Positions 15,823-52,492 of a stretch of 64,000 nt of DNA are shown here, piece by piece. The position numbers and the translations under genes were made by a program. The first letter of the stretch is position 1; each line of letters begins with the position of its first letter. Below the pieces are notes generated by a model that was given only the letters and a program-made list of their open reading frames with translations, was not told where the DNA came from and did not search any database. The stretch comes from Sclerodactyla briareus (lineage: Eukaryota > Echinodermata > Holothuroidea > Dendrochirotida > Sclerodactylidae). The DNA lies in assembly GCA_026419785.1 (NCBI GenBank), contig JAODTK010001210.1, positions 62,001 through 126,000 of the forward strand, given 5' to 3'.

Positions 15823-16002
15823 TCATCCAACCCCACCGCTGCCACCATTTACCGGGAAGGTGAGTACGGCCCGAAATATCCACGTGTTGAATCCGGCGGG
15901 TCCGGTCTCCGCCTTCATACCAGGTCGTTCCCATCGACAACGATCTGACTGGTTTCTGGTGCCGCAGTAGGTGTACCCAGTCCTGCCAATAGTGTCAATA
16001 AT
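15823..16002 (-). CDS. ADAMTS13: CUB2 domain end and stop (last exon)
   Basis: The exon joins phase 0 to the previous one: IIDTIGRTGYTYCG, then (slip) APETSQIVVDGNDLV, then (slip) MKAETGPAGFNTWIFRAVL and TFPVNGGSGGVG, stop TGA. Y-C-G followed by a hydrophobic strand and G-F-x-x-x-F-R-A-x-x-T-F closes a CUB domain. A GTAAAT inside TTCCCG-GTAAAT could be a donor, so an additional downstream exon is possible. A TTTATT (AATAAA on the minus strand) lies about 420 bases beyond the stop. Confidence 0.8.
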   Translation of the reverse strand: MIDTIGRTGYTYCGTRNQSDRCRWERPGMKAETGPAGFNTWIFRAVLTFPVNGGSGGVG

Positions 16003-16489
16003 CTGCGAGAGACAGGTTGGGGGCATATGAAATATTATTATTCACTGGAAGCTACAACAGCAAATACCATGTAGTAACACAGACTGATACCTATAGGTTT
16101 AGGAAAACGGTTTATGCGAATGTGTCATTTGCCCAGATGAATGCTAACTTAGACAACCGAAAACAAACGATTTTGCTTGCGAATCTGGCTGGAGTAGACA
16201 TTATACACATGAAACAATTTTACACTAAGCTAGTTTTCACTGCCAGGTCGAGTTAATAATAATTGATTTGGTTTTAGCATGAGACGGGCTAGTCCCAGAC
16301 ACCTGTACTCCGTCTGTTAAAACATCGGTTCTTGCAATACTTGCATCATAGATTATAAATAGTTATTGAATAGAAGTTGCATCTTAGAGTATTCTGAATT
16401 TACATAGATGCCATAGAAAACGACTTTTACTCTAACAAAAATGTAAACAAGAGGCAATAACCGGAGTTGCATGATCTCATCGGCAAATG

Positions 16490-17065
16490 TGGAAACTATT
16501 TAATTGTTTCTACTTGTACCTTTTCGCGAGTTGCAAAAGGACAAAATTTATCAAAATGTCTGAAAACAGCCATTTTCCCCAAAAAAGTATTCATATTCAT
16601 GGAAATTTCAGTTAATTTACGGCATGAATGTTGGAAACCCTTTGTTTTGATACTTTGTACCTTCTTCTGAAATTTGGAATCATTCAGTCCTCCCAATCAT
16701 TAAGTATACCAAAAACTGAACAGATTTTCCAGAAATTCTCAAATTTGGCCAAAAATCTATTTCCCCCCCTAAAATTGACATTTTTGGTAATTTTGGGCTG
16801 ATTGCATGTGGAAAGTTGTTATTTGTGCCTTTTTACATTGCTACAAAGTTTGAAATCATTCAGCCATTGGAATAAGGGAATATCTTGAAAAATAGTGAAA
16901 AACTTGTAAATATGAGAAATTGCCCCAAAATTTTTGTCTTTGCCTCCTAAATTCCCCAATTTTGATAGTTTCCGTCTAATTATGAGAGCAACTATGTGTT
17001 TAGTGACTATTCAAGTCTGTGCAAAATTTCACTTTGTTCAGCCACTCCAAAATGGAGATATTTGA
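16490..17065. repeat. ~175-bp satellite-like tandem units
   Basis: At least three diverged units, each with AATCATTCAGCC-like and AAAATTTGCC-like blocks, recurring at about 16675, 16850 and 17025. The array runs into the CA microsatellite and the X-box repeat. It is intronic in the protease gene. Confidence 0.6.
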
Positions 17066-17088
17066 GAAAACCATCAAAAATCTGACGG

Positions 17089-17092
<4 letters not shown>

Positions 17093-17139
<47 letters not shown>

Positions 17140-18825: not shown

Positions 18826-19249
18826 CTGTTGAATATGATCAGAACCAGAGATGTTGCTTAAATGGGTAAACAGAGCACATGTTTCCAATTTCTACTCTAC
18901 TTTTTGTTCTTCTGGTGTAGCAGTTGGGGTCGGCAACCCATTTTCTTTCATGGACTACCTTAACCACTGGCACAAATCTTCCCTCCTAGAACTGTCACCT
19001 TGTATATTCCCCATATATAGGTAGCTGAACCATACCCGTTGTTAGTTTTTATAGTAAATTTTGGGGAACATAAAACGTGGTAGCCAGGCTTAGGTCTCCG
19101 AGAATCCTGCGGCGACCGTTTCTTGTGCAGGTGCAAGAAATAGAGGAGGATATGTTCCGAACGCCACAATTTCATAAAAGTCACATAATCTGACATGGCG
19201 TCATATGATCGCCAGATGACATATTTGTCAAATATTTTGGCAGACATAC

Positions 19250-19415
19250 CTTCTTCTGGGTTCACGTCCTCCCCTACCACGCATGTTCAGCGTCACATGG
19301 TCGCTCTGTATCGGGTTTCTCCTCCTCGGAGCACTCTCCATCTGCCTGCTCCCGTCCCTCCTCTTAAAATGGTCACCGTTCTCTCCTGTGTTCCGTGACC
19401 GCATGTAGCATCACA
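19250..19415 (-). CDS. ADAMTS13: TSP1-12 exon (last repeat)
   Basis: CDATCGHGTQERTVT opens the repeat. After a slip it reads ADGECSEEEKPDTERPCDAE, then C-V-V-G-E-D-V-N-P-E-E. The donor GTATGT leaves one base, which joins the CUB1 exon as V-C-N-Q; the phase changes here from the 0-0 pattern of the array. C-D-A-T-C-G is an O-fucosylation site. Confidence 0.82.
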
Positions 19416-19599
19416 CTGTCGATAAAGTGATCATATCGATGATAGAATATTTTATCCATTAAAACCTGTGGTATTTTTGTTTTACCTGTTTCCAGCCCGA
19501 CACTAATCACTAGATTGAAACAATACGAATTTGCTAGTTTCCAAGGCAAGTACCGGTATCAGTTTAGTTAGGCCGATGCGCTCCAGAACAATTTTTTTT

Positions 19600-19960
19600 T
19601 CTTGTTGGCTAACGCTAACCTAACTCAATTTCTGACTAACCCTCAATCTAAAGAACGCAAATCAATCCTGTACAATACGATTAGGCAATCAATCACCTTC
19701 CCAGCGAACACAAAATGTTTTCATAACTTTTCGAAAAGAGCTTTAAAAAATGTCTTCATAACGTTAAGTGTGGTGTTATTAAAACTTTTTGATATCGTTT
19801 TTGATGGTCGAAACATGTTTTCAACGTTTCAATAATGTTATAATATTGTTGGAAGAGATGGAATGTTGCAAACAATGTTTATTAAAACATGATTATTATA
19901 CCACAAAATAATGTTTTTTAAGACATTAGATGAAACATTTTCATAACGTTTTAACTATGA
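19600..19960. repeat. AT-rich repeat rich in AACGTT and AATGTTTT
   Basis: Short motifs such as TTTTCATAACGTT, AATAATGTTATAATATTG and AAACATTTTCATAACGTTTT recur in both orientations. It resembles an old palindromic element. It lies in the intron between TSP1-12 and TSP1-11. Confidence 0.45.
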
Positions 19961-21401
19961 CTATTAAGGACATATTTGGCCCAAGAAAGCAACAACAGTT
20001 AATTAGGTATTGTTCGTAGTAGTGATTCATTAACCATAGGTTGCGCCAGCGCCATTTCGTCGGGAAATCCGAGTGGGTAAGCTACGATTTCAATACGCCC
20101 CGACGAGGGTCTATTGCACCTACAGTATAAATTTCCCCAACCTTCGTCAGTGAAAATTTATACTTTATAGCTGAATAATCTTTATCGCGCTAAGAGCGCC
20201 GGACATTTTTCATCTTATTTTTGAGTTCATTTTCGAGTCGGCACCACCACTGTGACTGCCATCAGCTGCAGTATTGAGAATTGTTGCCAAAAGTTGTAGT
20301 TTGCAGCAATTGGGACTGAAATTATCAACATATACTCTGTTCAATTTGTTCGGCGCCATAACCCGTTCTGCAGGACATTTTAATTTGCATGATAGTGAGG
20401 AGACCGCGGAGAGGAGGGGGGAGGGGTGGGTTATTGGTCAGTCAAAATTTTCCATTTGTCACATGAGTTGTGACTGTGGTTACAAAAAAAAAAACTCCGT
20501 AATTTTCCAGTGAAGCCAGTCTGCAACACTTCTTTTTAGAAATAGCAAACGACAGGTGCTGGTCATATATACCATTTTGAAGAGTCAATACGTTCGCGGG
20601 AAACAACACGTGTCGATAAGCGTCTATTCTGGCTGGTAATTGGTAGCCATTGAGTCTCCTCCAAACAATTTCCGTTCTCCAATTATTATTAATTGTTCGT
20701 TGTCTAGCCTGGCTATCTGAACCCTGGTGATACCGGTATGGCCATTTAAATGTCCATTTCCTTCTATTAATTACGTGGGTGTGCCCAAGAAAAACTGGAG
20801 TCTGCACGAGCGCAAAGACATTTTAAATGTTCCCTTCGTCCACCTGATCCAAGAATGTCTAGCTGCTTAGATAATGTCGAACGCCGGAACCTTCTGCTTG
20901 GACTTCCGTCCTGAATGTTCATGTAGGGCAACACGCACAATGGTAGTAGATCGGAAATCCACTTTTGGAAAGAATTTTTTTTTTTTCAGAATGTATCTCG
21001 GCTAGGAAGGCAATTCGGGCATCCCTGCAACAGGTCGGACACGGATGGATGGATGGAACACTCGACATGTAGGGAGGGGGGGGGGGGGGTCTTGTCGTCC
21101 TAGCTCAATAGTGTCCATAATAATGTAGGTATTTGTGATGTTTTATTCCTGTTCCATGAACAGCTATTTCACGTTCTCATCCGACCGATGCGAATGAAAG
21201 TTTCGATATGTTGCACAAGTAGAGAAGGTGAAGGTCAAAGCTTCGCAGAAAAAAAAAAATGCACGGTGAACAAACATACGTAGCGCACGTTCTCCTCATA
21301 TCACTAATTGTGATGTTTTCGGGAATGATCTTATACCAATAGCAGGAAATGATCTTCTCACAGTGTAAATAAACAGTAAGGAACTGGAATTCGAAGCTAA
21401 C

Positions 21402-21581
21402 CTCAGTCCATTCGCCAGTAACCCATATAGCAGGGGGTAGTGTTGGACACGCGTCGAGGCTACAATCCTGTCGCGTAACTGGTATCTGTGCTTGGTCACA
21501 TTCGGTATCTTCTACATTTTCGTCCCCAATCTGACATCTGACATCACGAGACTGAGACCCATTTCCACACGTTGCACTGCA
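21402..21581 (-). CDS. ADAMTS13: TSP1-11 exon (recent triplicate, copy C)
   Basis: The exon is intact (60 codons): CSATCGNGSQSRDVRCQIGD, then ENVEDTECDQAQIPVTRQDC, then SLDACPTLPPAIWVTGEWTE. It is nearest in sequence to copy B. The C-S-A-T-C-G site is kept. The donor is GTTAGC and the acceptor is TTATAG, phases 0-0. Confidence 0.93.
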
Positions 21582-21737
21582 CTATAAACAAAAAGGGGAA
21601 AAGAGAATCCATCATTCTACCTATCAAATGCGATAAATAGTTTATCACACAACCAATTGTTAGCTAATACATTTTTGTCAACAATTAAATTGTCCGGAAA
21701 TAACAAATAAATATGACTTTGAAAAATGGACACCAAC

Positions 21738-21916
21738 CTCCGTCCATTCGTCGATCACCCATTTAGCAGGGGGTAGTGTAGGGCACACATCAGTATTGCA
21801 ATCTTGTCGCGTAACTGGTACCTGGGATTGGTCACATTCGTCATCTTCTACGCTTTCATCCCCAATTTGGCATCTGATATCACGGACTGGTACCGTCTCC
21901 CATGTGGCGGCTTACA
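21738..21916 (-). CDS. ADAMTS13: TSP1-10 exon (recent triplicate, copy B)
   Basis: The first 25 bases are damaged: a TAA in the frame needed, with several differences from copies A and C. The rest is clean: RDIRCQIGDESVEDDECDQ, then SQVPVTRQDCNTDVCPTLP and PAKWVIDEWTE. The donor is GTTGGT and the acceptor is CTGTAG. Of the three similar exons it has the worst start, either a genuine lesion or a local read error. Confidence 0.83.
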
Positions 21917-22334
21917 CTACAGAATCCGGAAAGAACCAAAATGTTATCGAATGAGTTAACATTCCTGATAAAGTTAAAAGTTCATTTTTTGGAAATGATT
22001 ATTATGGTTGTTAAAACTTCACAGTTGGGCGAATGCACACGACACTGCTAGAAATAGCTCAGGGGCCTATTAATGACTGACACTTGAAAAAATCTTTGTT
22101 TTGACTATATTCGCCTATCCTTCCTTTCTGTTAGTGCCAGCTTCTATGCGACATGTACTGTACTCACTAAAATATACATGGCGATTACGCTTATAACAAA
22201 ATAATAAATATTAAATTTAGAGAGAGTTTACAGACTCCACAACAGTCTGGCAATTATATTGTTGGTCAGACATGTGATCGCTTCGTAATGAAAGCATGTA
22301 AAACTGTAATACACTGTAGAATATAGATACCAAC

Positions 22335-22513
22335 CTCAGACCAATCACCGATCACCCATTCAGCGGGGGGTAGTGTAGGGCACACACCGAGGTTGCAGTC
22401 CTGTTGCTCAACTGGTATGTGTGCCTGATCGCATTCGACGTCCTCTACGCTTTCGCGCCCTCTTTGGCATCTGACCGCACGATACTGGTACCCATTACCA
22501 CAGGGGCGCTACA
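22335..22513 (-). CDS. ADAMTS13: TSP1-9 exon (recent triplicate, copy A)
   Basis: After one lost base in the CCCC run the frame is CSAPCGNGYQYRAVRCQRGR, then ESVEDVECDQAHIPVEQQDC, then NLGVCPTLPPAEWVIGDWSE. It is closely similar to the next two exons along its length, including the shared C-P-T-L-P-P-A linker, which marks recent tandem duplication. C-S-A-P-C-G has lost the O-fucosylation Thr. The donor is GTTGGT and the acceptor is TCACAG. Confidence 0.9.
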
Positions 22514-22926
22514 CTGTGAAAACAGGAGCAATGATTCGTAAATTTTCAAATTAATTTTTCTGTTCTGTAGTTTTAGTTACCATCTCACCGCCGCTGTAAA
22601 CTGAGCATTGTCAAACTTTAGTCATTCTAATAGGCACCCAATCCGCAACGACCGATTCCCGTAGGGTCCAAGGTTGTGACCAAGTCATCCTAGATACTCT
22701 AAAATGGACCTAATAATATAACTGTTGTCCATCAGTGAATGAAATCAGGACATAAATGATACTCGCCGTGGGTACGAGAAATCCAACCTAAAACACAGTC
22801 ATCGGCATGAAACGTGGCAGACGTTTGAGCAATGTGCATGCGTGACAAAATATGAACAATTCTTATGAAGCGAATAATCGAATTGCGGGAAAATATAATA
22901 ATCGAGATCAAGTCTAATTGACCTAC

Positions 22927-23100
22927 CTCACTCCATGAACTAGCAGTCCATACCGCGAGTAAGGGACACTCTGCAACAAAACACGTGTCCTCAGCGTCGG
23001 GGATTTCATCGGCGACACAGTCCTCCCGGCGCCAATTCCTCCCCTCTTCGCAGTCTACAGATCGCACACGCGTACCACCTTCTCCGCAAGTTTCACTGCA
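22927..23100 (-). CDS. ADAMTS13: TSP1-8 exon
   Basis: The exon is intact (58 codons): CSETCGEGGTRVRSVDCEEG, then RNWRREDCVADEIPDAEDTC, then FVAECPLLAVWTASSWSE. Six cysteines are present and C-S-E-T-C-G is an O-fucosylation site. The donor is GTAGGT and the acceptor is CCTCAG, phases 0-0. Confidence 0.93.
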
Positions 23101-23603
23101 CTGAGGTATAAAAAATCATACTTGGTTTTTAGTCTATTTTAGGAATATCGCTCGTGCGTGACAACTAGATTGGCTTTTACTGGCGACGCCGATCCCATAT
23201 CATGTGTTAATTAGGTAATGGAATGTTGCATCGAAAGAACCTATAGTTATCGGTTTGTGGTGATGGCAACTCTCGGACGTCCACGCTCCATACTCCCACT
23301 CAATTCGAGTGCCTCGATAGTCGATACACCCTTTCGCCGCCCAGATAGAAATATGCCCGACCGACCGCAGACCATATCACAAATATAACGGGAGGAGGGG
23401 AGCGGTAAGATAATTAACATTCACCCAAACTGTTCAAATATCAGTTGTTAGGGGCTAGAGAGGTCAGTTACAGGGACATAATCAGGGCATATTTCAGGAT
23501 AGAAGTTAGAGCAATATTAAAAGCAACACGATTTTGTAGTATGCGTGCAATTATGCTTGCAATATGCGTGGCCAATGGCAGTATGTCAACCAATCAGGCG
23601 TAC

Positions 23604-23788
23604 CTCCGACCAGTTCCCGACAACCCATTCGGCCAGGCGGTTTTCGGTTGCACGGGGGGCTCCCATACTGCATCTCTTGAATCTGGGCGGCTTCTGATCT
23701 CCCTTGCAATTTCTCCGAGTCGCAGGGGTACCATCAGTTCACAGGTCACCTCTCGTATCTGGACGCCCTCTCCACATGTTGCCGAACA
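23604..23788 (-). CDS. ADAMTS13: TSP1-7 exon
   Basis: CSATCGEGVQIREVTCELM opens the repeat and NRLAEWVVGNWSE closes it. The middle is out of frame by two slips, one near the CCCC run and one near the CCCCCC run. A canonical C-S-A-T-C-G site is present. The donor is GTACGC and the acceptor is TTTTAG. A 3-kb intron with TA and CA microsatellites separates it from TSP1-6. Confidence 0.85.
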
Positions 23789-24357
23789 CTAAAATTGGAA
23801 AGAGGGCCCAATTGGTTATTCATTCACGACAATAGGAATAGTTTATTAAACTACATGACATGTAACTAGCACCCGAGGAGCATGCCGTCCCCGAAGACGG
23901 TTGAAACATAATTGAATAATTTCGGAACCCTCTTCCAAAGTGACTCATATATGTTAGGGAAGGTTCCTAACATGGATTACAAAAGATTCACAATGGGTCT
24001 TGACACGGATTAACTGTGGTCTCTCAAATATCTCCGGTGTATGTTAACATTCGTATGGTGTATGTTCAAGTTGACACTTTAAATCAATGTATCTAAAAAT
24101 GTTTGGTATGGCGAAACACCACCTCTTATTATGCCCAATTTTTAGTATAATGGCTAGGTCAATGTTTAGGCTAAATGACATACATATCATAGCCAGAACT
24201 CGTTTTGCTAGCCACAATTTTAATGCTTTGTTGAATGAAGAGAAATCTTTTTCTTACGCTAATTTAATGTTCCATGCTCAATTACTCAATCAAAACAAAA
24301 TAGGCCTAGTTTAAATTAACTATCCAATCGGGCAACAAGGCATCGATCCAAAAATCA

Positions 24358-24440
24358 TATATATATATATATCTATATATATATATATATATAGTATATA
24401 TATATATATTATATATATATATTATATATATATATATTCA
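24358..24440. repeat. Interrupted TA microsatellite
   Basis: ATAT runs broken by single bases; intronic. Confidence 0.95.
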
Positions 24441-26389
24441 CCAATTAACATTTAACAAAATTAAAAAAAATATTATTATTTTATTTATACTGGGTATAGA
24501 TATAGTAATTGAGAAAATAGTGCTGTAATTGTGTTGAGGAGGTAAATACTAGGTAAAATGACTAGGGGGGTGGGTATTCGGGGTATTACCATATTCCGAG
24601 TATAGAAGCGTTTCAGATACACCATTTTTCTACGCTAAAAGAATGTAAATACAACCACCAGTGGGATTTGATTAACTGGCCAGGGGTAAATCAGAAATAA
24701 TGGTGTGTATTAAGCAGTCAACATCAACGGTCAATGCATATATGAATATTCAGTAATTGTTATTAGAGTTAAGTTGGTGTATAATGAAGGGTCCGTGATA
24801 CACAACAAAGTGACCATACGTTAGTTGGTGATGTGGCGATATTTTGAACAATATCACAAGTATGGTATACGTTAATGACGCAGTTAGTTATATGAACAAC
24901 AGACTGGACATCGTGGTTATGTCACTAATAGGCCTAAATGTAATTCTGAGCGGAGCAATTGATGAAAGCTGCCCAGTCGATTTGTAGGGTATCAACGCTG
25001 ACTAGGTAGGCTGGCATAGTAATTCAAATTCGAAGCAGTCTTCGATAAGGTTGTCACGGTTCAGAAATAACCACATTTTACTCCTCATTAGGCTCGACCC
25101 ATTAGCGTAACCAACAGCAACCTCCCCTCGTCCTTCCCAGATGTTTCTTCCCTCTAACTTGATTACTTTCAGTTTTTCTTAGTTTTGCACGTACCGCACC
25201 GTAGTTTTCCCGCTAATAGCGACGTATAGGTATATGTATCTTTTTTGCTCGGGATTCTTGCCGGGGACAGAGGTGTGAACATATACACATCGCCCAACGA
25301 GGGGCAGATCTGTATACTGCACTGCCGACATGGATGTTGCCGAAGTTTTTTCAAGCTTCAAGATTGTGCGGTAGCTTGTGAAAAGTCATGCAGTTTATCT
25401 ACAGCGATTTTCTACTTTACTGTGTACCCGTCACCGATTTATTACTTTACTAGCATGAATTTATTGAAGGGATACCTGAACATCTGCCTTTATCCTTCTT
25501 TACTACCCAGCGGGAACGGAGGCAGGTGTCCAATTGAAACGAAAGTATGGGATTTTTTTTTTTGCAAAAAAAGTACCTATGATACTATATTTATTGCACG
25601 GAGATTTATAGAGGAAACAAGAGGTTGGACGTGTGTTGCCGAAACAGGTAGTTCACCAGACGTAGTCTGTTGTGAAGTACTTTTTTTTGTTGTTGAAAAA
25701 AACAATAATATTTTTGAGTAAATGTAAGCACGACATGTCGCCCGACAGTTCACAATAGAGGATCTAGACAGTCTACACGATAAAATATTGGAACAGATTA
25801 CGAAGGTGTTCAACATTGCATGATCAACTTCGAGAGATACGAAACTTTTTTGCGTGTTCGTTATTGTGGAAAAAAAATATTCGAACGAATAAACTATCTA
25901 CAATGGCTGGAAGGACAATGATTGATTTCTTCGAAGCATTACGTGCCTTTTCGCAAATTCATTAAGGTACATGAGAAGCAATACATGGGAACTATACAAC
26001 CTTACAAGGGAACGAAAACTTAAAAACTGGGTGCGAAAAAGGGGAGATGAATGACAAATCAAATCGTGATAAAAAAAATTAAAAAAAAATGTTCTAAATG
26101 AGGGCACTGAACCGCTGAATGCAGTGTGGGGATTATGGGACAATTTGGCTTAGTGAATGGGATAGTTTTCGCGAAAATCCTGATGTACATTACTGGACCA
26201 TACATGCTGTAAACCCGTCTCCTCGTCTGGTAACTGCGTCTGACAGTCCGACGAGTGACAACCGCTCCAATGATTGCCGTGCCTTTAGGTAAATTTCGCA
26301 AATAGCCCTAGATAACCCTGTCTTTTTGTTTTTCCTATTTCCCGACAGGATGGTATTGTATCCTTCAGAAGTGCAGTATATTATTTAAT

Positions 26390-26392
<3 letters not shown>

Positions 26393-26430
<38 letters not shown>

Positions 26431-26490
26431 TATATATATATATATTATATATATATATATATATATTATATATAATATATATATATATAT

Positions 26491-26556
<66 letters not shown>
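26393..26556. repeat. Compound CA/TA microsatellite
   Basis: A CA run of about 35 bases followed by about 130 bases of TA repeats. Long open frames on both strands here (Ile/Tyr repeats) are artefacts of the repeat. Confidence 0.95.
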
Positions 26557-26559
<3 letters not shown>

Positions 26560-26866
26560 TCTGATGGGAATTAATTTCGAATGCCACTCCCTCGACGATA
26601 TATATCAACCTAAATATTTCCTGAAAAAAAAAATTGTGGAATGAGGTGGCAAGTAAGCGAAATACACGATGGTGCACAGCAATACAAAGTAACTGAAATA
26701 AAGCATTTAGTGTGACGGTGATGCGGTGGCAATGAAGCGATCACAGTAGCAGGCATTTGGGTGATCGAACTTACAGTTGTCATGCTACAACACTGGCGTT
26801 AACGGAGGGTGTCAGCACTGCAACATTTGGCGCGAAGCATGAACGAACAGCCAACGAGCCACTGAC

Positions 26867-27052
26867 CTCCGACCAGGGGCCGGTTTCCCACATGGGTTGG
26901 CGGTCGTCCTCCGAGGGGCATGCCTGCCGGGTACATTCCCTCTCGCTGTCTGGGCGGGTCCCGGGGTCGCATAGTTCGGCGTCAACCGTCCGTTTTGCCT
27001 GGTGACAACCGACAAACCTGCTTTCTTTGCCGGTACCACACTGTACGTCACA
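26867..27052 (-). CDS. ADAMTS13: TSP1-6 exon
   Basis: The exon is intact (62 codons): CDVQCGTGKESRFVGCHQAK, then RTVDAELCDPGTRPDSEREC, then TRQACPSEDDRQPMWETGP and WSE. Six cysteines are in TSP1 order. C-D-V-Q-C-G lacks the O-fucosylation Ser/Thr. The donor is GTCAGT and the acceptor is ATACAG, phases 0-0. Confidence 0.93.
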
Positions 27053-28055
27053 CTGTATTAGAAACAAACGACTGAATTAGGACTAAGTGATTCAGTCTGC
27101 GTAGCTCATATGATGCATCCCTCGATGTAGTTGCCCGTGATTGCAGTCAGATCTAGGTGATGTGAACACACATCATATCGGTGCCCTAGAAGCGTCTATT
27201 AGTCACGGACACGTGTAGTACCCTTGCAAACCGTCCCTCTTCAGTAACAAACGGCTGTGCTACGACCACATGCATCAGATAGTAGAATAGAATAATGTTT
27301 GAAAATCAATTCTTCTCAATATGGTCGTTTTAGGTTTCACCCTGTGACGCCACCACAGCGTAGTAGCAGCAAAACACGACACATGCGTTGGCAAGTCAAG
27401 GGTAAGGCCTATTATCTTTGACCGTTCAGGCTTTCCACAGAGGGTTTTCGCAATCACAATCAACTAGCCAATCCCGCTGCATGACGTGAACATTTGGGCT
27501 AATGGCACCTGATCTTCTCATGGTATGTCGGAGTGATATAACGTCATTTTGCATGGTATCATTCGACGGACTTTCACGGACGGAGCGTCCAGGAAATTGG
27601 GGATCAGTCATGAGTTGGACCGAGTCTGATTACAGCTAGCTTCTGACCACTTCAGGGGTGTGAATATGTGTAGCATAAACATAACCTCTGTCGTGGTGAA
27701 TAACTTGTTAACGGTGTATTCTGGAGCATCCACTTAGTAGATTGATGAGTCAGTACAAATCCATGGACTGTTAGAAGCATAGAACCATTTTATCAGTGGG
27801 AATAGATTCATTATCATATGAGAAATCAGTAAAGAAAGGTCGCCTTGATCAGAGGAATTAGCAACCCGAAGCACAACAGAATCAGCAGACTGGAAGTGAG
27901 AGAATAGAGTAATGAGCGTATAATAACCTGATCCCCTGGCTGTTGCTCGATTGTTGCCGAGTTTTTCTTGCATCAACTCATTGTCCTGTTGAGTCAGAAG
28001 GAACAGAAAAACTATGGCATCTCAAGGAGATTGATGACAGAACAAAGTAACTTAC

Positions 28056-28228
28056 ACGTGACCAAAGACCCGAGATCCATTTTGCAGGGACAGGACACGG
28101 TGGCTGCTGACAGGGGATTTTGACCTGGGCCTCAGTTCCGGGTCACACTCGCTCTTGTGGACAACCTCGCCTCCCTGTTGACACGTTGCGGTACGGTATT
28201 TGATGCCGAAGCCACACGGTACATTGCA
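28056..28228 (-). CDS. ADAMTS13: TSP1-5 exon
   Basis: CNVPCGFGIKYRTATCQQGG, then EVVHKSECDPEL; after one missing base, AQVKIPCQQPPCPVPAKW and ISGLWSR. C-N-V-P-C-G lacks the O-fucosylation Ser/Thr. The end is R rather than the usual E, and the donor GTAAGT follows. The frame break lies at GAACTGAGG. Confidence 0.87.
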
Positions 28229-29354
28229 CTGTAAGAATAGGGAGAAATGTCAAAAATGTTGAATCACCTATGTATACACTTTTCTTACGAGGATTGGAAA
28301 CTTCTTTTCTTGTCTTATTTTCTGCAAACTCTACCTATATTTTTCACTTTATACAAAACAAGTACATAATAGTAGAAGCTCCCTCGGAGAAGATGCGTGG
28401 TCTTCATCATTGCAGGTACCGATAGGGCTGACGATCCCTCCAGTGTGGAAGCTACACGTAGTCAAATGTGGAACATTTTTGTGGCGAGGAAGGGGAAGGG
28501 GAATTAACTAAAATTTTCCGTAACAATAATTTCTACATAGCCATTTTATTTGCGAACTATAATCCTATGCGGCAATCAGTTCAGTTCACGGTTGTGGTTT
28601 GATGACATGACAATGATATGATAACATTATGGTACCAGAGGCATTGGGTGCACTGCCAAGCGGAGGTGGGTACACGTTTTACGAACCCAGTGTACCGAAC
28701 GAAATTCAATGACGAAATCTCCGTCGTCGAGAATGACACATCCCACCAGTACAGAATCGCCCACATATGCACACACTCATCAACAATATTATATACAGTG
28801 AGGCATGGAATAGATTAGGTGCCACAGATACGATGTAATGATGACAGCGGTATGGGGGAAATCACGTTCGTACGTACCCTGCTTAGTTGTGAGCATGCGC
28901 ACCTGTAACGCTGAACTAATTTATTACTCACAGATCCGAAATACGCACAAAAAACCTGCGTCACAATAGAAAAATATCACCTACTGACGGCACTAGGTGT
29001 AAAGAAAGAGCTAAACCCTGTACAAAGTCATAGGACGATCTTTCTAGACATTGCGTATCAAGCTTTTCGAGAGATTCATGTACCGTTTTCTCCAGTCGAC
29101 ATGGTAGCTGAAATAGTTTCATAAATACTTTGTACATATGCACAAAAATCGCACCACGCGCGCTACAAAACGTGAGTAAATCGGCGTCAAAAGCTTGGGA
29201 TGCGCCCTTCAGTGTGTAACGAGTAACATTAGGCCACTGTGTGTACACACACTGACTTAACGGCGAATCCATGAATTATTTGAATTTCTCATGACTCGCT
29301 TGCGCCTCGAGATTGTGTGGTGGCACACTCCTCTTATTCGCGGCATGCACTCAC

Positions 29355-29516
29355 CTCGCCCCAGTCCTCGGAGACCCACTCAGGGCATGCGCCCTGGTCG
29401 CATGACCTCTCTAGCTCTAGCCCATCCCTGTAGTCACACTCTCCGGGGGTCAGTCTATCACCGGTCCAGCACTCCACCTTCCGCCTCTGAACCCCAGTCC
29501 CGCAATCACCATCGCA
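29355..29516 (-). CDS. ADAMTS13: TSP1-4 exon
   Basis: The exon is intact (54 codons): CDGDCGTGVQRRKVECWTGD, then RLTPGECDYRDGLELERSC and DQGACPEWVSEDWGE. All six TSP1 cysteines are present. C-D-G-D-C-G has no O-fucosylation Ser/Thr. The donor is GTGAGT and the acceptor is CTCTAG, phases 0-0. Confidence 0.93.
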
Positions 29517-30109
29517 CTAGAGGAGTGGATAGATGATGATATTGTACAGTTGTCATTATACGCGAAGTGATCATCAAAAAACCATATGACCAAATGAGAT
29601 ATGACATCATATCAACACATTTGCGCTATTGTCTACATGGGGCCTACTCTTCGCTGTACCTACTATTGGAAAAATATGACACTGAAAAATGTTATAATGC
29701 GTAGTTTACGATACTACTAAAATTGCTTGAGAATAAATATATATTTCATGAAATAAATAAATTACTTATTGTTAGTGATTTGGCTAAGGGAGACGCATTG
29801 ACCATGTATAAAGTAACTCACGTTAAGGTATTCCGTTTTGCGAGAAGAAATCATACAAGGGTTATCCTGGTTATAGAGGCATTCTGTATATATACACAAA
29901 CTTAGACCAGCGCCAGCCACCATAATTATATAATTAGGATGACTGACACGGAACAACTGGAATGTAGACGAAATTAATGAAAATACAGAAGAATAGGTTC
30001 TCTCGAACAACAAACTTCCACGCAGCATAGGAACACATCAACGCATGATGCTGCGTGATTCTATTAATATGCCAAACACCGACAGGGTATGTATGACCTG
30101 ACTGCTTAC

Positions 30110-30279
30110 CTCCGACCAATCACCGACCACCCATTCGGGGCTGGGTCACATTCGCCCGCAAAACATTCCCGCGTGCCACGTGGCCTATCACTGTCACTGC
30201 AGTCACCAGGGGCCAAAACCCCGCCCCTCTGGCATTTGACCTCCCTGGTTTGCTGTCCCTGTCCGCATTCGGCGTCGCA
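30110..30279 (-). CDS. ADAMTS13: TSP1-3 exon
   Basis: CDAECGQGQQTREVKCQRGG, then VLAPGDCSDSDRPRGTREC and FAGECDPAP; after one lost C it ends P-E-W-V-V-G-D-W-S-E. C-D-A-E-C-G lacks the Ser/Thr needed for O-fucosylation. The donor is GTAAGC and the acceptor is CCGTAG; intron phases are 0-0. Confidence 0.9.
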
Positions 30280-39262: not shown

Positions 39263-39403
39263 AAGTGTCGCTGGCATGTCTCAGCCCCGAATCCCAGAGC
39301 CAAGACGCATTGTCGGTCCATGTCATAGACCGCCCCGGAGAGGTCGTCAACTGGGAGGGGGCTGTTGGACGGGACGTCATCGAGGCAAGTCGCGACCGGA
39401 CCC
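39263..39403 (-). CDS. ADAMTS13: End of protease, start of disintegrin-like domain (d1)
   Basis: The exon is intact: GPVATCLDDVPSNSPLP, then VYDMDRQCVLALGFGAETCQ. C-L-x-D-x-P followed by x-Y-D-x-D-x-Q-C-x-x-x-F-G-x-x-x-x-x-C is the standard ADAMTS disintegrin-like start. The donor is GTGAGT. It joins m5 in frame (FLG-GPV). Confidence 0.9.
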
Positions 39404-39872
39404 CTGATGACGAAGATGAGGAATTAACTACTTGTTATTGATGGATCCGATATGGTGTCACGATACATCAGTACGTATGTGTACGAAGTGTCTTCGGTAG
39501 CAAAACGGTGAATTTACTTCAGTTCAATGATGGTGCGGAAGAAATATTTACTGGGTATGGGTATGTGATGAACTAATGAACTATCATAATGAACTGATCT
39601 TCAGTAATTGCAGGTGTCACGTACCTCGATTTTCTAGAAAGTATCCATTATAATGCACTACATTGCCTTAAGACATACTTTTGAAAGGTTGCAATGAGCC
39701 AGTTTATAATTCAGGATGTTTAACAACACAACCGTAATTTCTCTTTCTTTCTCCCATAACTCAGTAAAATCCCAGTGAAATTGGATTACAAACGTATTTA
39801 TACGTTGTAACAATCAGGTAACAATTGTCCCATTAACAAGGACAAAGCGTTTCGTGAAATTCGTGTGCTTAC

Positions 39873-40004
39873 CCAAGGAAGGTTCGTATATTTCGCCGAC
39901 TACATTCTGACCACGTGAACGAGTCAGGCCCGGCAGGTCTCCATGACGACATGATGTTCATACCGCTAATACACCCATAGTCGTCGTCGTGGTTCAAGCC
40001 CAGT
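39873..40004 (-). CDS. ADAMTS13: Third zinc ligand and Met-turn exon (m5)
   Basis: The exon is intact. Joined to m4 it reads T-LGLNHDDDYGCISG, then MNIMSSWRPAGPDSFTW, then SECSRRNIRTFLG. This completes HExxHxxGLNHD, gives the Met-turn NIMSS, and the W-S-E-C-S-R-R motif that closes ADAMTS catalytic domains. The donor is GTAAGC and the acceptor is TTCAG. The one-base overhang fits both neighbours. Confidence 0.92.
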
Positions 40005-40142: not shown

Positions 40143-40512
40143 CTGAATGAAATATTGAACAATTGCCTCAACGGCAACTTCCGCAACCATGGACAGATTG
40201 ATAAAAATGTTGTATGTTTTATATAAACGCCGACCTGGATTACATAACAGGGGAAATAGAACACATAAATATATTCAATCCATATCGACCTGAACTTCGG
40301 ATACTTGAATTCTGCTTTACTGGATACCAACCGGCACCATTCCAGCAATCAATCATTATTTGAATGATTAAATGGACCGTTCGGTAATTTTGATCCGCCT
40401 TTGTTATACTGTTTCTGTAAAGGATAGCGGCACACCTTTCCGACAATGTGATCAAAAACACTGGCACGATGACGATCGATGGCGAGGATGTGACAGATGA
40501 ATATAATACTAC

Positions 40513-40619
40513 GTGTGTCCAGTCTCGTGGGCTATCACCAACGATGAGCCGAGTCCATCGTCTTGGTTGTAGGAACATTGTAAGGCCTCTTCTGCAGGTG
40601 CTGCTCAAGTACGCTTTAC
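40513..40619 (-). CDS. ADAMTS13: Catalytic exon with zinc-binding HExxH (m4)
   Basis: The exon starts with GKAYLSSTC. After a one-base shift it reads LQCSYNQDDGLGSSLV, then IAHETGHT. HETGH supplies the first two zinc-binding histidines and the catalytic glutamate of the HExxHxxGxxHD motif. The donor GTAGTA leaves two bases (AC), which join equally well to either of two downstream exons: the standard one at 39873-40004 or its duplicate at 40068-40142. Confidence 0.87.
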
Positions 40620-41010
40620 CTAACAGGCTATCGTCTCGTCCATTGGTCAGTGATGTGTATATATTCTTTCTGCGTGGAAACCACAGTGAATTTGAATTGC
40701 GAAAAGAAAAGTCACGTGAGCTCGATTTCGTGAGAACAGCAACGTGGTATGAACCCATCGCTTATGTGACTGACTTTCTAGTGAAACCGAAAATCGTAGT
40801 CTTCTACCGTCTTTTTTCTTAGTTCCCTAAGGTTGACACCGCCAATATCTTGGCCAAGACGTGTGGCCAATGTATAGGGGGGAGGGGTTTGGTTATGCCT
40901 CTTCTTACCGTGAACCCGTAGTAGAATTTAGAAGGGAGTGGTCCTACCTGATCATTAACTGGAATATTCAGCATGAGAGTTATGATTTTAATCATGAAAC
41001 CTAGTTCTAC

Positions 41011-41140
41011 CTTGTTAGTAGTATCGCGTGTCCCAGTGTTCCGGGTGGGGTCCTGGATTCGGATTGATATTCGACTGCCAGGCGCAGAAGTCATCCAGTG
41101 TCGCCGATGATCCGGTCACGGCGAAGGACGAGGAACGAAG
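41011..41140 (-). CDS. ADAMTS13: Metalloprotease exon with FCxWQxxIN and HxDTAILLT (m3)
   Basis: The frame reads LRSSSFAVTGSSATLDDFC, then AWQSNINPNPGPHPEHWDT. After a one-base loss the sequence ACTACTAACAAG reads as AILLT. The pair T-L-x-x-F-C-x-W-Q-x-x-I-N and H-x-D-T-A-I-L-L-T is diagnostic of ADAMTS catalytic domains. The donor is GTAGAA and the acceptor is CTTACAG. The exon-to-exon phase into m4 is not clean, so a small exon between 40.6 and 41.0 kb may be missed. Confidence 0.88.
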
Positions 41141-45057: not shown

Positions 45058-45146
45058 CATTGGGTTATCCGTTTCTAATAACATGAACTTCACTATATGA
45101 ATCCTCAAGGTTATGTCTAGATGGGGTCGGCGTATCTCCGGCTAAC
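45058..45146 (-). CDS. ADAMTS13: Metalloprotease exon with second helix and strand (m2)
   Basis: The exon starts VSRRYADP and, after a one-base shift, continues LDITLRIHIVKFMLLETDNPM. Together with m1 this gives the ADAMTS pattern M-N-x-V-x-x-x-Y-x-D-P-S-L followed by I-x-I-x-x-V-x-x-x-x-L-E. The acceptor is TTTCCCAG, the donor is GTAAGA, and both boundaries are phase 0. The frame break sits in the ADP-CCCAT run. Confidence 0.8.
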
Positions 45147-45537: not shown

Positions 45538-45719
45538 CACATTCATGAGCGCAAAAACATAATCCTCCGTGTCGTTACCGTGGAACTCGACCATATCTTT
45601 GTCTGCGGACCACGAAAAGCTCGAGGTACTTTGTCCCACGTATGGAAGGGGTTGGGAAATGGCACTTGGTCCCTTGTTTTGGCGAAGATATGGCATGGCC
45701 GTAGGACGGTACCCGACCG
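45538..45719 (-). CDS. ADAMTS13: Prodomain end and start of metalloprotease domain (m1)
   Basis: The first half reads MPYLRQNKGPSAISQPLPYVG and should span the pro/mature junction. It is followed by TKYLELFVV and, back in the first frame, ADKDMVEFHGNDTEDYVFALMNV. This is the classic first strand and helix of the reprolysin fold (x-x-V-E-x-x-V-V-A-D-x-x-M-V-x-x-H-G). A one-base loss after GTGGG and a one-base gain before GCAGAC temporarily shift the frame and then restore it. The donor is GTAAGT and the acceptor is CCTCAG. The phase-0 end matches the next exon. Confidence 0.85.
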
Positions 45720-48700: not shown

Positions 48701-51312
48701 GTCGCGAAGGTACTAGTCCAATATTCAGGATGAATATGTTTAGTCTAAAAACATTCCTTTTTACCACCAATAAATAGTGTCTCATATATTAAGTACATCC
48801 TATATGCAAAACAATGTATTTTCATGGCAAGGACGTCACACTTCTCCACGACCTGTTCTGCCCTGTTCTCATAGTTATGAATCCCTTGTTCCATCACGAA
48901 ATGGAACAAGCTCCCATCAAATATAGTTGGACTTAGCAATGAGAGTGCCTCCAAGAAGGCAGTCGGCACCTGGCTATACATCAATAATATGCGCACCAAC
49001 TATCCTCCATCAAAATGCCACGCATGGGCACATTAGAGTATTGCAACGAAGACGAAGACGGTCTTTTTTGTGGAATTGATCGCAATATTGCGGCAACCAT
49101 GAACAACTATGACAACATGATACGACTATATGAAACACTTTTGTTTCAATAAAGCTCGCTACATAAAAACGTAATTACTTTGTCACTGTACGTAGCTTTT
49201 CTCTGCACAAACATGTCTAAACTACAAATATTCAAAGTAACGAAAGTTTTAAATAATACTGCGGACTATACGATTGATTTGTTAGTCTGCAAACAGGTTC
49301 AGTCAGGGCCATGTATCGGCAGATCACTGCGAGCACAATTCGAAGAATTTATTTTGGAACGAAATCGAGCTTAATTTCCGGTCTACCTTCGAGTAGGATC
49401 GCAGCGCTGTTAGCAACACCTGGTATCACACCTGCGCTTACCGTTCCTGCTAGAATGTATTTCGCCGAAATTTGAAACACAATCAGTTAGCTTGATATGA
49501 CTTCGTGTGGTCCATTACAAAATGGCGACCACATCGTTGACTACAATGAAGGTAATAAGAGAGGACCAAAAACTAAATCCATGGTTCCATATTCCGCCGC
49601 GGAGTTGTTGATGGGATGCCTTTCTGTCTTTTCGGGGGGGCCCCCCCCCAAAAATGACAGGTACATTAATTATTCAACTCACGATAGCCATACTGTTGTC
49701 GTTTACATTTTTAATATGTTGCCCTCCTCCAAAAAACAACAACAAAAAACAACAAAAAACAACAAAAAACAACGATCGTGCCCTGCATCACACCAGGAAT
49801 GTAATGTATTGCTTTGCTGAAAAACAAACCAAAACAACCCCCCCCCAAAAAAAATAAAAAATAAATAAAAAATAAATAAAAACAAGCTCAATCGTAAACG
49901 CCTTTGCAGCTGCCAGCGAATACACTGCTGTACAGGCCCGGCAGATCAGGTTTGAACTTCATGAACGTCTTGATGAAAGAGATTAGAACTTTTTTTTTTT
50001 TTTGCATGGCCTGCATGCATCCTACCAGGTTCACGATGAATGCATCAGACCGCTTCCTTTCGCATCTTCCAATGGACTTGTAGGTTACTCCGTAGCTTCA
50101 TCCAACAAAAATTAGTTTATTAAATTATTTCATCAAGCTAAACGGAAAGGTGACACGCTTTCTCCTTAAATCTTTCATTGCAAAGTTTTGACATAATAAT
50201 TCATATTGAATGATGGAAATTTAGAAGGCTTTCGAATGAGCGGCATCCTTCCCAACCGGCTCCATTCGCAATTAGCCATGTTAGCCGCAACTTGTATCGG
50301 TGCCGTTTCAACTTTGAACTTTTTATTGTTTTAACTTTTCTGGTCCTAACTAGTCTTCAGAAGGTAGCAGTGATCTAGGTTACTTAATTTGTAAGGAACT
50401 ATTGCAGTCATATCGTCATTTCTGTTTTGCAACAATAGAGCTGTTATTCGTTTGACCGTATCAATGGCCAATGGCTTGCAAAGTCTAGGCACACAATGGT
50501 GAGATCTAATGAACCCATCATGGCTTTCTGATTCGTCTATACTCTGTCTGGTATATATTTGTGAGTCACTGGATGTAACAATGTTGCCATGTAGCCTTGG
50601 TCGTCCGTTGCGTTGTGACTTTCTGGGTCACACAAACACTAGCAGGTGGTATAACTCAAACAGGGATTCCTAGAACAGGAAAACAGGGGGACAGTGCATG
50701 TGTTCCAATGATGCCTTTCATAGGGGGTATAGTGTGTATTTAGTAGCAAGATTTTCGTCACGAGAGCCGACCGTACCAGCGAGACACAAACCATTTGTGT
50801 GACACGTATTTCCAGCACACACAATCTGATCAACCTCGAATGCGATTATACTCAAATTGGAATATAGTTAGGGCGGGTATGTGTATATAACGGCAACAGA
50901 CTGTTTTTGAGTTGAGGCCACCTCACCCGAACCTCTTCCCCAGAAGTTGTCCATTGTACTCAATCATTTACTAACGTTGGACTGTACGACTGTTGAACTG
51001 TCACCAGTAACAACATTTCATTATAACAACAAATAGCTCACGAGAATCGAATGGAATTGAACGGATCTTGTGTAGTCCCATTAACTGCAACACAACTGCA
51101 GTGAGGTCCAGTAATGCCCCGTAGGTCTTATTTTGGGAATCACCAACTGGACCATAAGTTGGAATCCCTGTTGCACTTTCGGGGTCTCATATATATACAA
51201 TTTCAGTTGGGTCTCATTATTTCCAGTAAGGTCCCATTGAAATTTTCAACGAGATCTTACGAGATTCAACTGGGAGTCATCATCTTCCAAATAAAAAAAT
51301 CGCTATACTCAC
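45720..51312. other. 5.6-kb intron between prodomain and metalloprotease exons
   Basis: Contains the second copy of the ~500-bp repeat and A/C-rich low-complexity sequence (about 49730-49870). I recognised no exon, though a short one could be missed. Confidence 0.45.
46955..47440 (+). repeat. ~500-bp dispersed repeat, copy 2
   Basis: Second copy of the element at 9985-10515, in the same orientation, inside the large intron between prodomain exon p2 and metalloprotease exon m1. The copies differ by point changes and small indels along their length. Confidence 0.9.
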
Positions 51313-51507
51313 GAGCTTCATAAGAACAAAATGAATGGTGTTGTTCTAGCGGCCGCTCCCCGTGTGCACTTGGTCGAGTCGATGTCGTTCGTTATATATT
51401 ATATGGGGGTTATCGTCGACATCTCTTCTCGACCGTAACCTGTCCGCATGGTGCTCCTTCAGCGGCTGGATGATGAAGTCCGTGTCGTTCTGACTCACCA
51501 TACCATG
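51313..51507 (-). CDS. ADAMTS13: ADAMTS prodomain exon (p2)
   Basis: After a TTTGTGTAG acceptor the frame reads HGMVSQNDTDFIIQPLKEH, matching the conserved prodomain pattern of a short glycine-containing strand followed by D-x-x-F-I-x-P-L. It continues with RLRSRRDVDD (a basic, furin-like RSRR), then NPHIIYNERHRL, like the P-H-x-x-Y-x-R segment near the end of ADAMTS prodomains. The frame meets a TAG at the GSGR position. The likely donor (CTC then GTGAGT) lies about 25 bases further, so a small frame break near the 3' end is likely. Vertebrate ADAMTS13 has an unusually short propeptide, so an exon like this shows a more typical, longer ADAMTS prodomain. Confidence 0.7.
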
Positions 51508-52277
51508 CTACACAAAGGGAAAAGGGAATTTGAAAGGTCAGGTTAAGATCCCACCGTTACATCATAATAGGATGAAGGATCGTAAGAAGAGGGCTTCGGT
51601 ATTCGGCCCAAAGCCCGGCTAACGGGCTTAGCACTGACCATCTACGTTTCTCAAATTACAACATACTTTTCCCAGAGGTAATTAGGAATTGTCCTGGTAT
51701 ACACTCCTAAAGGCGCGGGTTACACCAGTTGATCATAGCTTGTTTCTTCACCGTTTCTTAAGCCTGTTAAGTACTGACAAAACACTGCTAACCGATAGGG
51801 TCAGCGAAACGAGGTATTTCAACTCAGCATCTCTAGGTTGAATCAGATACAACATTCAGACTCAATACACTTATTGTTTTGGAGTCGAGGTGGAAAAAGG
51901 TTTTGTCATTTCATGCGTCGTCCGGCGTGTTGCTACTCCATCTGCCATTAACATTGCGTAATTGCGTTAATGCTCTATGGCTGTCCGCAACGTTTCTCAA
52001 AATTATCCTTTTCTTAAAATATGAAAACTTTGCCAGGATATGATCTCTTGTTACTAATACGGACTTTATATGATTTTATATAGCTTTAGGTTTACTAAGC
52101 AGTCGAGCGGCGCAACGCAGATGTCGAGTACTCGAATGTTACAGTATGTTGAGTTCACTTATGCAAAACGGCACGCAAGCCAGTTGATCCCTCCATGTCT
52201 TTAGCCTAAAAGAAATGTTGGTATACCATCAGTGGAACACCTGATTGAAGCTGGGTTTTAACTTTTTTCACTTTTAC

Positions 52278-52492
52278 GGCCTCGCCTGTTATGCTTCCAT
52301 CGAAGGGCTCGGAAATGGAAATGGTAGAGGGCTCCAGCTTTGGGGGTGGAAGGACAACGGCGAATCTCGCGTACTCTTCTCGAAGAGTGCTCTGAGTAAC
52401 GGGGCAGGGGTGGGAATTCCTGCTCCCGGGTCGCCATTTAACGTCCCCATCCGACGGACGAGAGTGTAGGCTTCACTCGTGCAGCCACTTTC
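52278..52492 (-). CDS. ADAMTS13: Candidate ADAMTS prodomain exon (p1)
   Basis: The minus strand has an acceptor ending GTTAG. One frame runs to FEK, and after a one-base shift a second frame gives LREEYARFAVVLPP followed by ISISEPFDGSITGEA. The proline-rich PP motif followed by an EPFDG segment recalls the N-terminal part of ADAMTS prodomains. The donor GTAAAA is weak. The phase-0 end fits the phase-0 start of the next exon (p2). I saw no hydrophobic signal peptide, so this is probably not the first exon. It could also be chance coding potential. Confidence 0.4.

Follow-up and report, generated by a model that had tools for sequence, protein, structure and literature searches.

In the 64,000-nucleotide stretch of the Sclerodactyla briareus contig analyzed here (the window), we find what is, with high confidence, a holothurian gene of the ADAMTS13 lineage, that is, a gene for a zinc metalloprotease, predicted to be secreted, with a CUB pair that goes back to an early deuterostome ancestor, read through an error-rich assembly. 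The domain order, the intact zinc site, and the ancestry of the core and of the CUB domains are demonstrated at the sequence level.

Gene Structure and Domain Order

According to the exon alignment to the Apostichopus sequence P0002, the gene lies on the minus strand and runs from the ATG at position 61276 to approximately position 15859 (Table 1). P0002 aligns exon by exon and in the same order across the whole gene, which comprises the prodomain, the metalloprotease (HETGHTLGLNHD), the disintegrin-like domain, TSP1, the Cys-rich domain, the spacer, 11 TSP1 exons, and two CUBs. The sequence-only reading had placed an ADAMTS13-like domain string at 15823–52492; matches to PF00431, PDB, and P0002 confirm this string on the minus strand inside the range, but the gene is longer, with prodomain pieces at 54793–55124 and approximately 61179–61276, and no exon boundary was found at 52492.

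Table 1. Exons and domains of the Sclerodactyla gene. Fractions are residues identical to Apostichopus P0002 over aligned residues.
Feature	Position	Strand	Evidence
Exon 1: ATG, signal-peptide-like start, first prodomain residues	61179..61276	-	DILSTEELREYS/DVLSVEELQEYS P0002 match; frame break between the two parts
Prodomain stretch	54793..55124	-	59/100 identical; tblastn E 8e-8; 5 frame breaks, 2 stops in alignment
Prodomain end	51314..51507	-	36/63 identical; 1 frame break
Linker and metalloprotease start (KYLELFVV..ADKDMVEFHG)	45538..45719	-	41/59 identical; 2 frame breaks; flanked by cag and gtaagt
Metalloprotease exon (LDITLRIHIVKF)	45058..45146	-	22/27 identical; 1 frame break
Metalloprotease exon	41010..41140	-	30/43 identical; 1 frame break
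Metalloprotease exon with HETGH	40512..40671	-	49/53 identical; 1 frame break
Metalloprotease exon LGLNHDDDYGC..IMSS (third Zn His, Met-turn)	39872..40003	-	40/44 identical; frame intact
Disintegrin-like, exon one	39263..39403	-	32/44 identical; frame intact
Disintegrin-like, exon two (..DGTSMCGVEK)	36140..36229	-	18/24 identical; 2 frame breaks; flanked by cag and gtgagt
Central TSP1	35599..35809	-	53/70 identical; 2 frame breaks
Cys-rich, exon one	34718..34835	-	24/38 identical; 2 frame breaks
Cys-rich, exon two	34015..34164	-	40/48 identical; 1 frame break
Cys-rich-to-spacer exon	33540..33659	-	27/40 identical; 1 frame break
Spacer, exon one	32820..32905	-	18/28 identical; 1 frame break
Spacer, exon two, long loop VYLLYDPNAIYGVNVKP	31595..31861	-	56/87 identical; 2 frame breaks; long loop as in ADAMTS13
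C-terminal TSP1 array, 11 exons, introns between	19248..30934	-	P0002 alignment
TSP1 array exons 1-6	30727-30934, 30110-30279, 29355-29516, 28062-28231, 26861-27052, 23604-23788	-	
TSP1 array exons 7-11	22930-23103, 22335-22519, 21738-21916, 21402-21581, 19248-19424	-	
CUB1, two exons	18680-18825 + 18022-18192	-	37/48 and 35/57 identical; frame intact; profile match to fish ADAMTS13 CUB1
CUB2, two exons	17338-17530 + 15859-16005	-	51/63 and 25/47 identical; 3 frame breaks, 1 stop

Exon 1 has the donor AAG/gtcagt, its match taken alone being weak (26.9 bits, E 0.27). Nine of the 11 TSP1 array exons, as placed, start with TGC or TGT after ag and end in AG followed by gt, and PF00431 matches the first CUB2 exon with E 2.5e-6. 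One catalytic exon is present twice, as an intact version and as a decayed copy next to it. A regular-expression scan of single ORFs for HExxH and TSP1 did not pick the gene up, its motifs being interrupted by introns and frame breaks.

TSP1-like ORFs strung together by chance were considered as an explanation and rejected, and so was a mis-joined CUB gene: P0002 and P0001 (from a 5,998-base contig, probably a transcript) carry the same domain string.

Placement Among the ADAMTS Proteins

Both the reprolysin zinc site HExxHxxGxxHD and the Met-turn IMSS are intact, and the ADAMTS domains (prodomain, disintegrin-like, central TSP1, Cys-rich, spacer) are ordered in the gene as they are in P0002 according to Pfam. 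In the tree of 41 ADAMTS cores, which omits ADAMTS1/4/5/8/15 and 17/19, represents 2/14 by ADAMTS3 only, and includes at most one tunicate row for 6/10, the Sclerodactyla gene forms a clade (support 100/99) with six echinoderm rows, the acorn worm Glandiceps, six fish ADAMTS13, and the abalone Haliotis, separate from ADAMTS3, 16/18, 7/12, and 9/20. The clade is retained when Haliotis, fish ADAMTS13, or ADAMTS3 is left out of the tree (SH-aLRT 99, 99, and 100, respectively), and AU tests reject both alternatives in which the echinoderms join ADAMTS3 (p 0.00017) or ADAMTS16/18 (p 1.5e-8). The long branches of fish ADAMTS13 and Haliotis count against this placement.

The structural comparisons are mixed. 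In a PDB search with three joined catalytic and disintegrin exons, ADAMTS5 came first (E 1.4e-15), followed by ADAMTS1, ADAMTS4, and ADAMTS13 (E 1.1e-11); the bit scores of ADAMTS5, 1, and 4 (60, 56, and 52) exceed that of ADAMTS13 (48), which counts against the ADAMTS13 reading, and the spacer exon alone had no PDB match at E 10. For the whole-protein model of Acanthaster P0007 (pLDDT 73.2, pTM 0.44), the best Foldseek match was human ADAMTS13 (6qig), but by Z the catalytic structures of ADAMTS4, 1, and 5 fit better, also counting against; no CUB structure was seen among the best 50 matches of each of two fold searches with this model.

Grouping with ADAMTS13 rather than with the other ADAMTS tested, as the sequence-only reading had proposed, is upheld by the tree, the three leave-out runs, and the AU tests. 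Its suggestion of a non-vertebrate gene was also correct, the closest named protein being holothurian (Apostichopus, 71% identity over 569 core columns). What does not stand is the novelty of a pre-vertebrate ADAMTS13 relative, as echinoderm (including sea urchin) ADAMTS13-like genes and the deuterostome CUB pair are already in print (PMC4448532, PMC4349717, PMC8746392). Judging by sequence, the homology to ADAMTS13 holds, and the Sclerodactyla gene adds one more member to a class of genes already described.

Comparison With Known Relatives

The ADAMTS13-like protein of Apostichopus japonicus, an animal of the same class whose cDNA has been published (PMC8746392), has the same domain string. 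The frame of P0002 is intact, whereas that of the Sclerodactyla gene is broken, and P0002 has ten PF19030 stretches compared to 11 C-terminal TSP1 exons in Sclerodactyla. The last TSP1 repeats of the Sclerodactyla array, T9–T11, look recently multiplied. The CUB-containing ADAMTS of sea stars and sea urchins (P0004, P0006, P0007, P0011) belong to the same clade and have two CUBs and 225–266 residues ahead of the protease, but only two PF19030 TSP1 stretches (in P0004 and P0007, the two examined).

With vertebrate ADAMTS13, the gene shares the core clade, the long spacer loop, the TSP1 array, and the C-terminal CUB1–CUB2 pair. It has 12 TSP1 exons (one central and 11 in the array), compared to eight in human ADAMTS13 (PMC8746392). 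In fish ADAMTS13, the protease begins at residues 18–69 in five out of six rows and at residue 281 in P0038, and the CUBs of P0030 are not recognized by Pfam. Haliotis P0101, in turn, shares the clade, HETGHTLG, and the long spacer loop (VYRIYGDMY), but has ShK repeats, no Pfam CUB, and a long branch.

Spacer Loop, Gatekeeper Triad, and Possible Substrate

The spacer loop (L9) of the Sclerodactyla gene has 31 residues. Loops of 28–33 residues are found in all 15 ADAMTS13-clade rows with the complete region, compared to 22–25 residues in 25 out of 25 others; the models of Glandiceps (17) and Mercenaria (0) are cut there. The gatekeeper triad Arg193/Asp217/Asp252 (PMC6706451), which in human ADAMTS13 maintains latency until the clotting target is encountered, is absent: Leu, Gly, and Trp occupy its positions in Sclerodactyla. 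It is absent from eight out of eight echinoderm and acorn-worm rows, Haliotis retaining Asp217, and present in human and in six out of six fish rows, which distinguishes vertebrate ADAMTS13 from the gene considered here.

Among the spacer exosite residues Arg660, Tyr661, and Tyr665 (PMC8051872), the first corresponds to Leu, the second to Tyr, and the third to Ala or Tyr depending on which of two alignments is used. Leu replaces Arg660 in holothurians, and the vertebrate (fish) rows have Arg, Lys, or Asn at this position; Tyr661 is conserved in the three holothurian rows and in Haliotis. Ser stands in P0001 and P0002 at the position of Arg349, which we take to be an exosite-1 residue.

These observations bear on whether the enzyme could already cleave a VWF-like multimer of the coelomic fluid in a shear- or unfolding-sensitive manner, itself closed by the CUB–spacer contact as in vertebrates. 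We consider this unlikely: the loop, CUB-binding in man, is already long, Tyr661 is present in the rows mentioned, and a Tyr lies opposite Tyr665 in one of the alignments, but the lack of the triad in all eight rows appears to speak against a VWF-like role, as do the Leu for Arg660 and the Ser for Arg349. Since the triad is absent and Arg660 is replaced, a VWF A2 domain is a less likely substrate than some other target. A literature search found nothing on hagfish VWF and the origin of ADAMTS13, nor anything on topic for the evolution of the lamprey VWF A2 domain.

The ADAMTS13 prodomain is unusually short (PMC6706451, PMC4448532); that of the Sclerodactyla gene is not, with stretches at 61.2, 55, and 51.4 kb, and one out of six fish rows is also long there. 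The product would be made with a long prodomain and secreted; the protease would cut an extracellular protein of the body fluid or matrix, and its partner may be chosen by the Cys-rich/spacer face together with the C-terminal TSP1–CUB arm.

Integrity of the Reading Frame

Following P0002 through the 5,068 aligned coding bases requires the frame to change 36 times and meets three stops; nine out of 31 aligned exon pieces have no frame change. These breaks and stops, and the decayed duplicate beside an intact catalytic exon, speak for an ADAMTS13-like pseudogene in which the breaks are genuine mutations and no enzyme is produced. However, a single base too few (22 cases) or too many (eight) accounts for 30 of the 36 breaks, with the surrounding peptide conserved; the two catalytic exons containing the zinc ligands are 40/44 and 49/53 identical to P0002, with these ligands intact; acceptors are AG in 22 out of 27 and donors GT in 22 out of 27 splice edges as placed, the remaining ten being at most five bases off; and the stops number only three, while neutral decay is expected to yield many more. 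We therefore hold a pseudogene to be improbable, an error-rich assembly being the better fit to this pattern of breaks. Pfam found no families in ten other long ORFs of the window, and hence these provide no yardstick for its indel rate.

Ancestry of the CUB Pair

Profile comparison (hhalign) of echinoderm and fish CUB1 yields probability 96.9 (E 1.9e-10), while fish CUB1 scores 6.8 against echinoderm CUB2 and 16.5 against seven other CUBs; hence, the CUB1 match is specific. For CUB2, the fish–echinoderm comparison (96.0) is hardly distinguishable from that of fish CUB2 with other CUBs (93.7), so this pair is not specific. The CUB tree, with weak deep forks, leaves the CUB1 ancestry unsettled and splits echinoderm CUB2, placing that of sea stars with fish CUB2 (94/74) and the others elsewhere. 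A CUB-region search from Acanthaster P0007 retained three out of 323 candidates, all from sea stars and including P0007 itself; as shared five-residue words were required, the result does not show that such CUBs are lacking elsewhere.

That CUBs were added independently in echinoderms to some other ADAMTS (e.g., of the ADAMTS2/3/14 stem), the likeness to ADAMTS13 being convergent, is very improbable: HETGH is common to ADAMTS3, Haliotis of the same clade has ShK repeats and no CUB, ADAMTS13 stems from ADAMTS2/3/14 according to Brunet et al. (PMC4349717), and the CUB2 similarity is non-specific, but the grouping of echinoderms with ADAMTS3 is rejected by the AU test, the long spacer loop is common to ADAMTS13, fish CUB1 finds its match in echinoderm CUB1 and hardly anywhere else, and the two CUBs stand in identical order. 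The outcome that would have spoken against the initial reading, placement in another ADAMTS clade together with an independent CUB gain, was not obtained, and the CUB pair looks inherited from the common ancestor with vertebrate ADAMTS13.

Age of the Lineage and Implications

Judging by the Haliotis row, the lineage may be older than deuterostomes, with the CUBs gained later. The AU test does not reject a deuterostome-only ADAMTS13 clade excluding Haliotis (p 0.17), and therefore Haliotis may be sister to all its members. We tentatively propose, at somewhat less than even chances, that the ADAMTS13 lineage and its long spacer loop are older than the protostome/deuterostome split, with ShK in the abalone and the CUB pair added in deuterostomes; that the loop and the CUB arm first served another extracellular target; and that the triad and the fit to VWF are later, vertebrate acquisitions. 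No work linking ADAMTS13 to mollusc ShK forms was found in a literature search.

The kinship is masked by the database names of the relatives (ADAMTS6, 9, 15, 16, 18-like): P0002 is named ADAMTS6-like, P0003, also from Apostichopus, putative ADAMTS9, and Haliotis P0101 ADAMTS18-like. For a medically important enzyme, our data suggest an order of events in which the spacer loop and the CUB arm precede VWF and the latency triad follows, and sea cucumbers and sea stars thereby offer a way to test what ADAMTS13 cut before VWF.

Gene structure and integrity

The string of domains in ADAMTS13 order proposed by the sequence-only reading is genuine and is encoded on the minus strand, with TSP1, CUB, catalytic and spacer pieces visible in stop-to-stop reading. 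According to the alignment to the Apostichopus japonicus CUB-ADAMTS protein (P0002), the exons are consecutive and in order from the start codon at 61276 to about 15859, a span of about 45 kb; the upper gene end proposed earlier, 52492, leaves out two prodomain stretches, at 61.2 and 55.0 kb. As placed, 22 of 27 acceptors have AG and 22 of 27 donors have GT, and the remaining ten sites have AG or GT at most five bases away. An intron splits the metalloprotease motif between HETGH and LGLNHD, and the Met-turn is IMSS. TSP1 exons T9, T10 and T11 are 74–79% alike in DNA vs. 54–69% for other pairs, and thus this part of the array has probably been multiplied recently.

Features of the ADAMTS13-like gene and of its surroundings (positions in the window)
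Feature	Position	Strand	Basis or remark
Prodomain	61.2, 55.0, 51.4 kb	minus	alignment to P0002
Metalloprotease	45.7, 45.1, 41.1, 40.6, 40.0 kb	minus	alignment to P0002
Disintegrin-like	39.4, 36.2 kb	minus	alignment to P0002
Central TSP1	35.8 kb	minus	alignment to P0002
Cys-rich	34.8, 34.1, 33.6 kb	minus	alignment to P0002
Spacer	32.9, 31.8 kb	minus	alignment to P0002
TSP1 array, 11 exons	30.9 to 19.2 kb	minus	alignment to P0002
CUB1	18.8, 18.1 kb	minus	alignment to P0002
CUB2	17.5, 16.0 kb	minus	alignment to P0002
TSP1 exons T9–T11	21402–22519	minus	
Decayed, frame-broken copy of catalytic exon 39872–40003, splice acceptor included	40067–40164	minus	70% identity over 101 alignment columns
Tandem repeat	7632–7798		unit 20 bases, 8.4 copies, 91% matches
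AC, AT and TA runs in gene introns	17089–17143, 24357–24437, 26429–26556		

The frame-tolerant alignment to P0001 and P0002, the two best protein matches, requires 36 frame changes over 5,068 aligned bases, of which 22 are one base short, eight one base long and six of other lengths, and meets three stops, two within one poorly aligned prodomain stretch and one in the last CUB exon. The peptide between the breaks is well conserved: two catalytic exons keep 49 of 53 and 40 of 44 residues. The pattern has the appearance of an assembly with indel errors, and the rival reading, a pseudogene, is very improbable. None of ten other long ORFs of the window contains a Pfam family, and hence there is no second gene to serve as a yardstick of the error rate.

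Relationship to ADAMTS13

The hand-read protein of 1,434 amino acids matched 498 proteins, the best two being P0001 and P0002 (97–100% of query length, 54–55% identity). Among the best 120 of the 498, eight have a Pfam CUB domain (P0001–P0004, P0006, P0007, P0011, P0067), and seven of these eight come from echinoderms or an acorn worm. In the databases P0002, P0003, P0004, P0006, P0011 and P0067 are named ADAMTS6, 9, 15, 16 or 18; among the named invertebrate CUB-bearing relatives in the matches listed, only P0007, from Acanthaster, is called “13-like.”

The core tree comprised 41 rows: the window, six echinoderms, the acorn worm Glandiceps, six fish ADAMTS13, four ADAMTS3, the abalone Haliotis (P0101), and 22 others (16/18, 7/12, 9/20 and other forms); Saccoglossus P0067, whose model is missing some of the catalytic core, was left out. 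The window and Apostichopus form a pair, with 71% identity across 569 columns (a few window residues at frame joins were inferred), so that the source animal is probably a holothurian. As the sequence-only reading anticipated, the gene groups with ADAMTS13 rather than with the other ADAMTS sampled: the window, echinoderms, Glandiceps, fish ADAMTS13 and Haliotis form one branch with support 100/99, in a tree without ADAMTS1/4/5/8/15 and 17/19, where 2/14 are represented via ADAMTS3 only and 6/10 perhaps via one tunicate row. The branches leading to fish ADAMTS13 and to Haliotis are long; SH-aLRT for the clade is 99 without Haliotis, 99 without fish ADAMTS13, and 100 without ADAMTS3. Forced grouping of the echinoderms with ADAMTS3 (p = 0.00017) or ADAMTS16/18 (p = 1.5e-8) is rejected, and a deuterostome-only clade excluding Haliotis is not (p = 0.17). 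Against the ADAMTS13 grouping, ADAMTS5/1/4 outscore ADAMTS13 for three joined exons, and crystal structures of ADAMTS4/1/5 fit the P0007 model best by Z, human ADAMTS13 (6qig) being eighth; 6qig ranks first for the whole P0002, and first in Foldseek with the P0007 model.

The spacer stretch holding human Arg660, Tyr661 and Tyr665 is 28–33 residues long in all 15 complete clade rows (human, six fish, seven echinoderms including the window, and Haliotis) and 22–25 residues in all 25 rows outside the clade, the Glandiceps and Mercenaria models, cut within this stretch, standing outside the counts; this length is not independent of the tree, to which the same columns were open. In the literature searched, we found no published report of a long spacer loop common to the clade.

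P0101 is named ADAMTS18-like, yet falls inside the ADAMTS13 clade, and has ShK repeats where echinoderm and vertebrate proteins have CUB domains; such an abalone protease was likewise not found reported in the literature searched. The Coilia fish ADAMTS13 model (P0038) has about 280 residues ahead of the protease, resembling an ordinary ADAMTS prodomain, whereas the other five fish rows have a short start.

Origin of the CUB pair

Profiles of seven echinoderm rows (including the window), ten fish rows and seven other CUBs from PDB matched CUB1 to CUB1 (96.9%, E = 1.9e-10) and CUB2 to CUB2 (96.0%, E = 4.5e-9) between echinoderms and fish. Fish CUB1 has no good match elsewhere (echinoderm CUB2 6.8%, fish CUB2 16.6%, other CUBs 16.5%). 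The remaining pairs are less telling. Within echinoderms, CUB1 and CUB2 match each other at 96.4%, and echinoderm CUB1 matches the other CUBs at 96.2%; echinoderm CUB2 behaves as an ordinary CUB (99.9%), and for fish CUB2 the match to the other CUBs stands at 93.7%. The specific evidence is therefore CUB1 together with the shared order. The simplest reading of these profiles is that the pair was gained once, before the echinoderm–vertebrate split, and then strongly altered in vertebrates; the CUB-only tree is too weak to decide CUB ancestry.

Earlier studies describe a pair of ADAMTS13-like genes in sea urchin (PMC4448532), a CUB pair newly arisen at the deuterostome base out of an ADAMTS2/3/14 stem (PMC4349717), and an Apostichopus ADAMTS13-like cDNA of 933 amino acids with 10 TSP1 domains, placed near the same sea star proteins as matched here (PMC8746392). 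The gene is thus not a new kind, and is a further example of the published echinoderm ADAMTS13-like genes.

Functional implications

PMC6706451 describes the gatekeeper residues Arg193, Asp217 and Asp252 as found only in ADAMTS13, with conservation extending from human to zebrafish. The window has Leu, Gly and Trp at these positions; the triad is absent from all eight echinoderm and hemichordate rows and present in all six fish ADAMTS13 rows, while Haliotis has the middle Asp only. The literature searched yielded no published report of this absence in echinoderms. According to PMC8051872, Arg660, Tyr661 and Tyr665 of ADAMTS13 contact the CUB domains; in the window Leu replaces Arg660, Tyr661 is conserved, and the residue at 665 differs between two alignments (Ala in one, Tyr in the other). 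An older form of the CUB–spacer contact may exist. For a dividing sea cucumber, transcripts labelled ADAMTS13 are listed in intact and not in fissioning animals (PMC5897022).

The zinc site is intact, the prodomain is long, and the domains are those of a secreted ADAMTS. The protein would be processed in the secretory path and then act as an extracellular protease, its partner chosen by the Cys-rich/spacer face and the TSP1–CUB arm. Since the triad is absent and Arg660 is replaced, a substrate other than VWF A2 is more likely.
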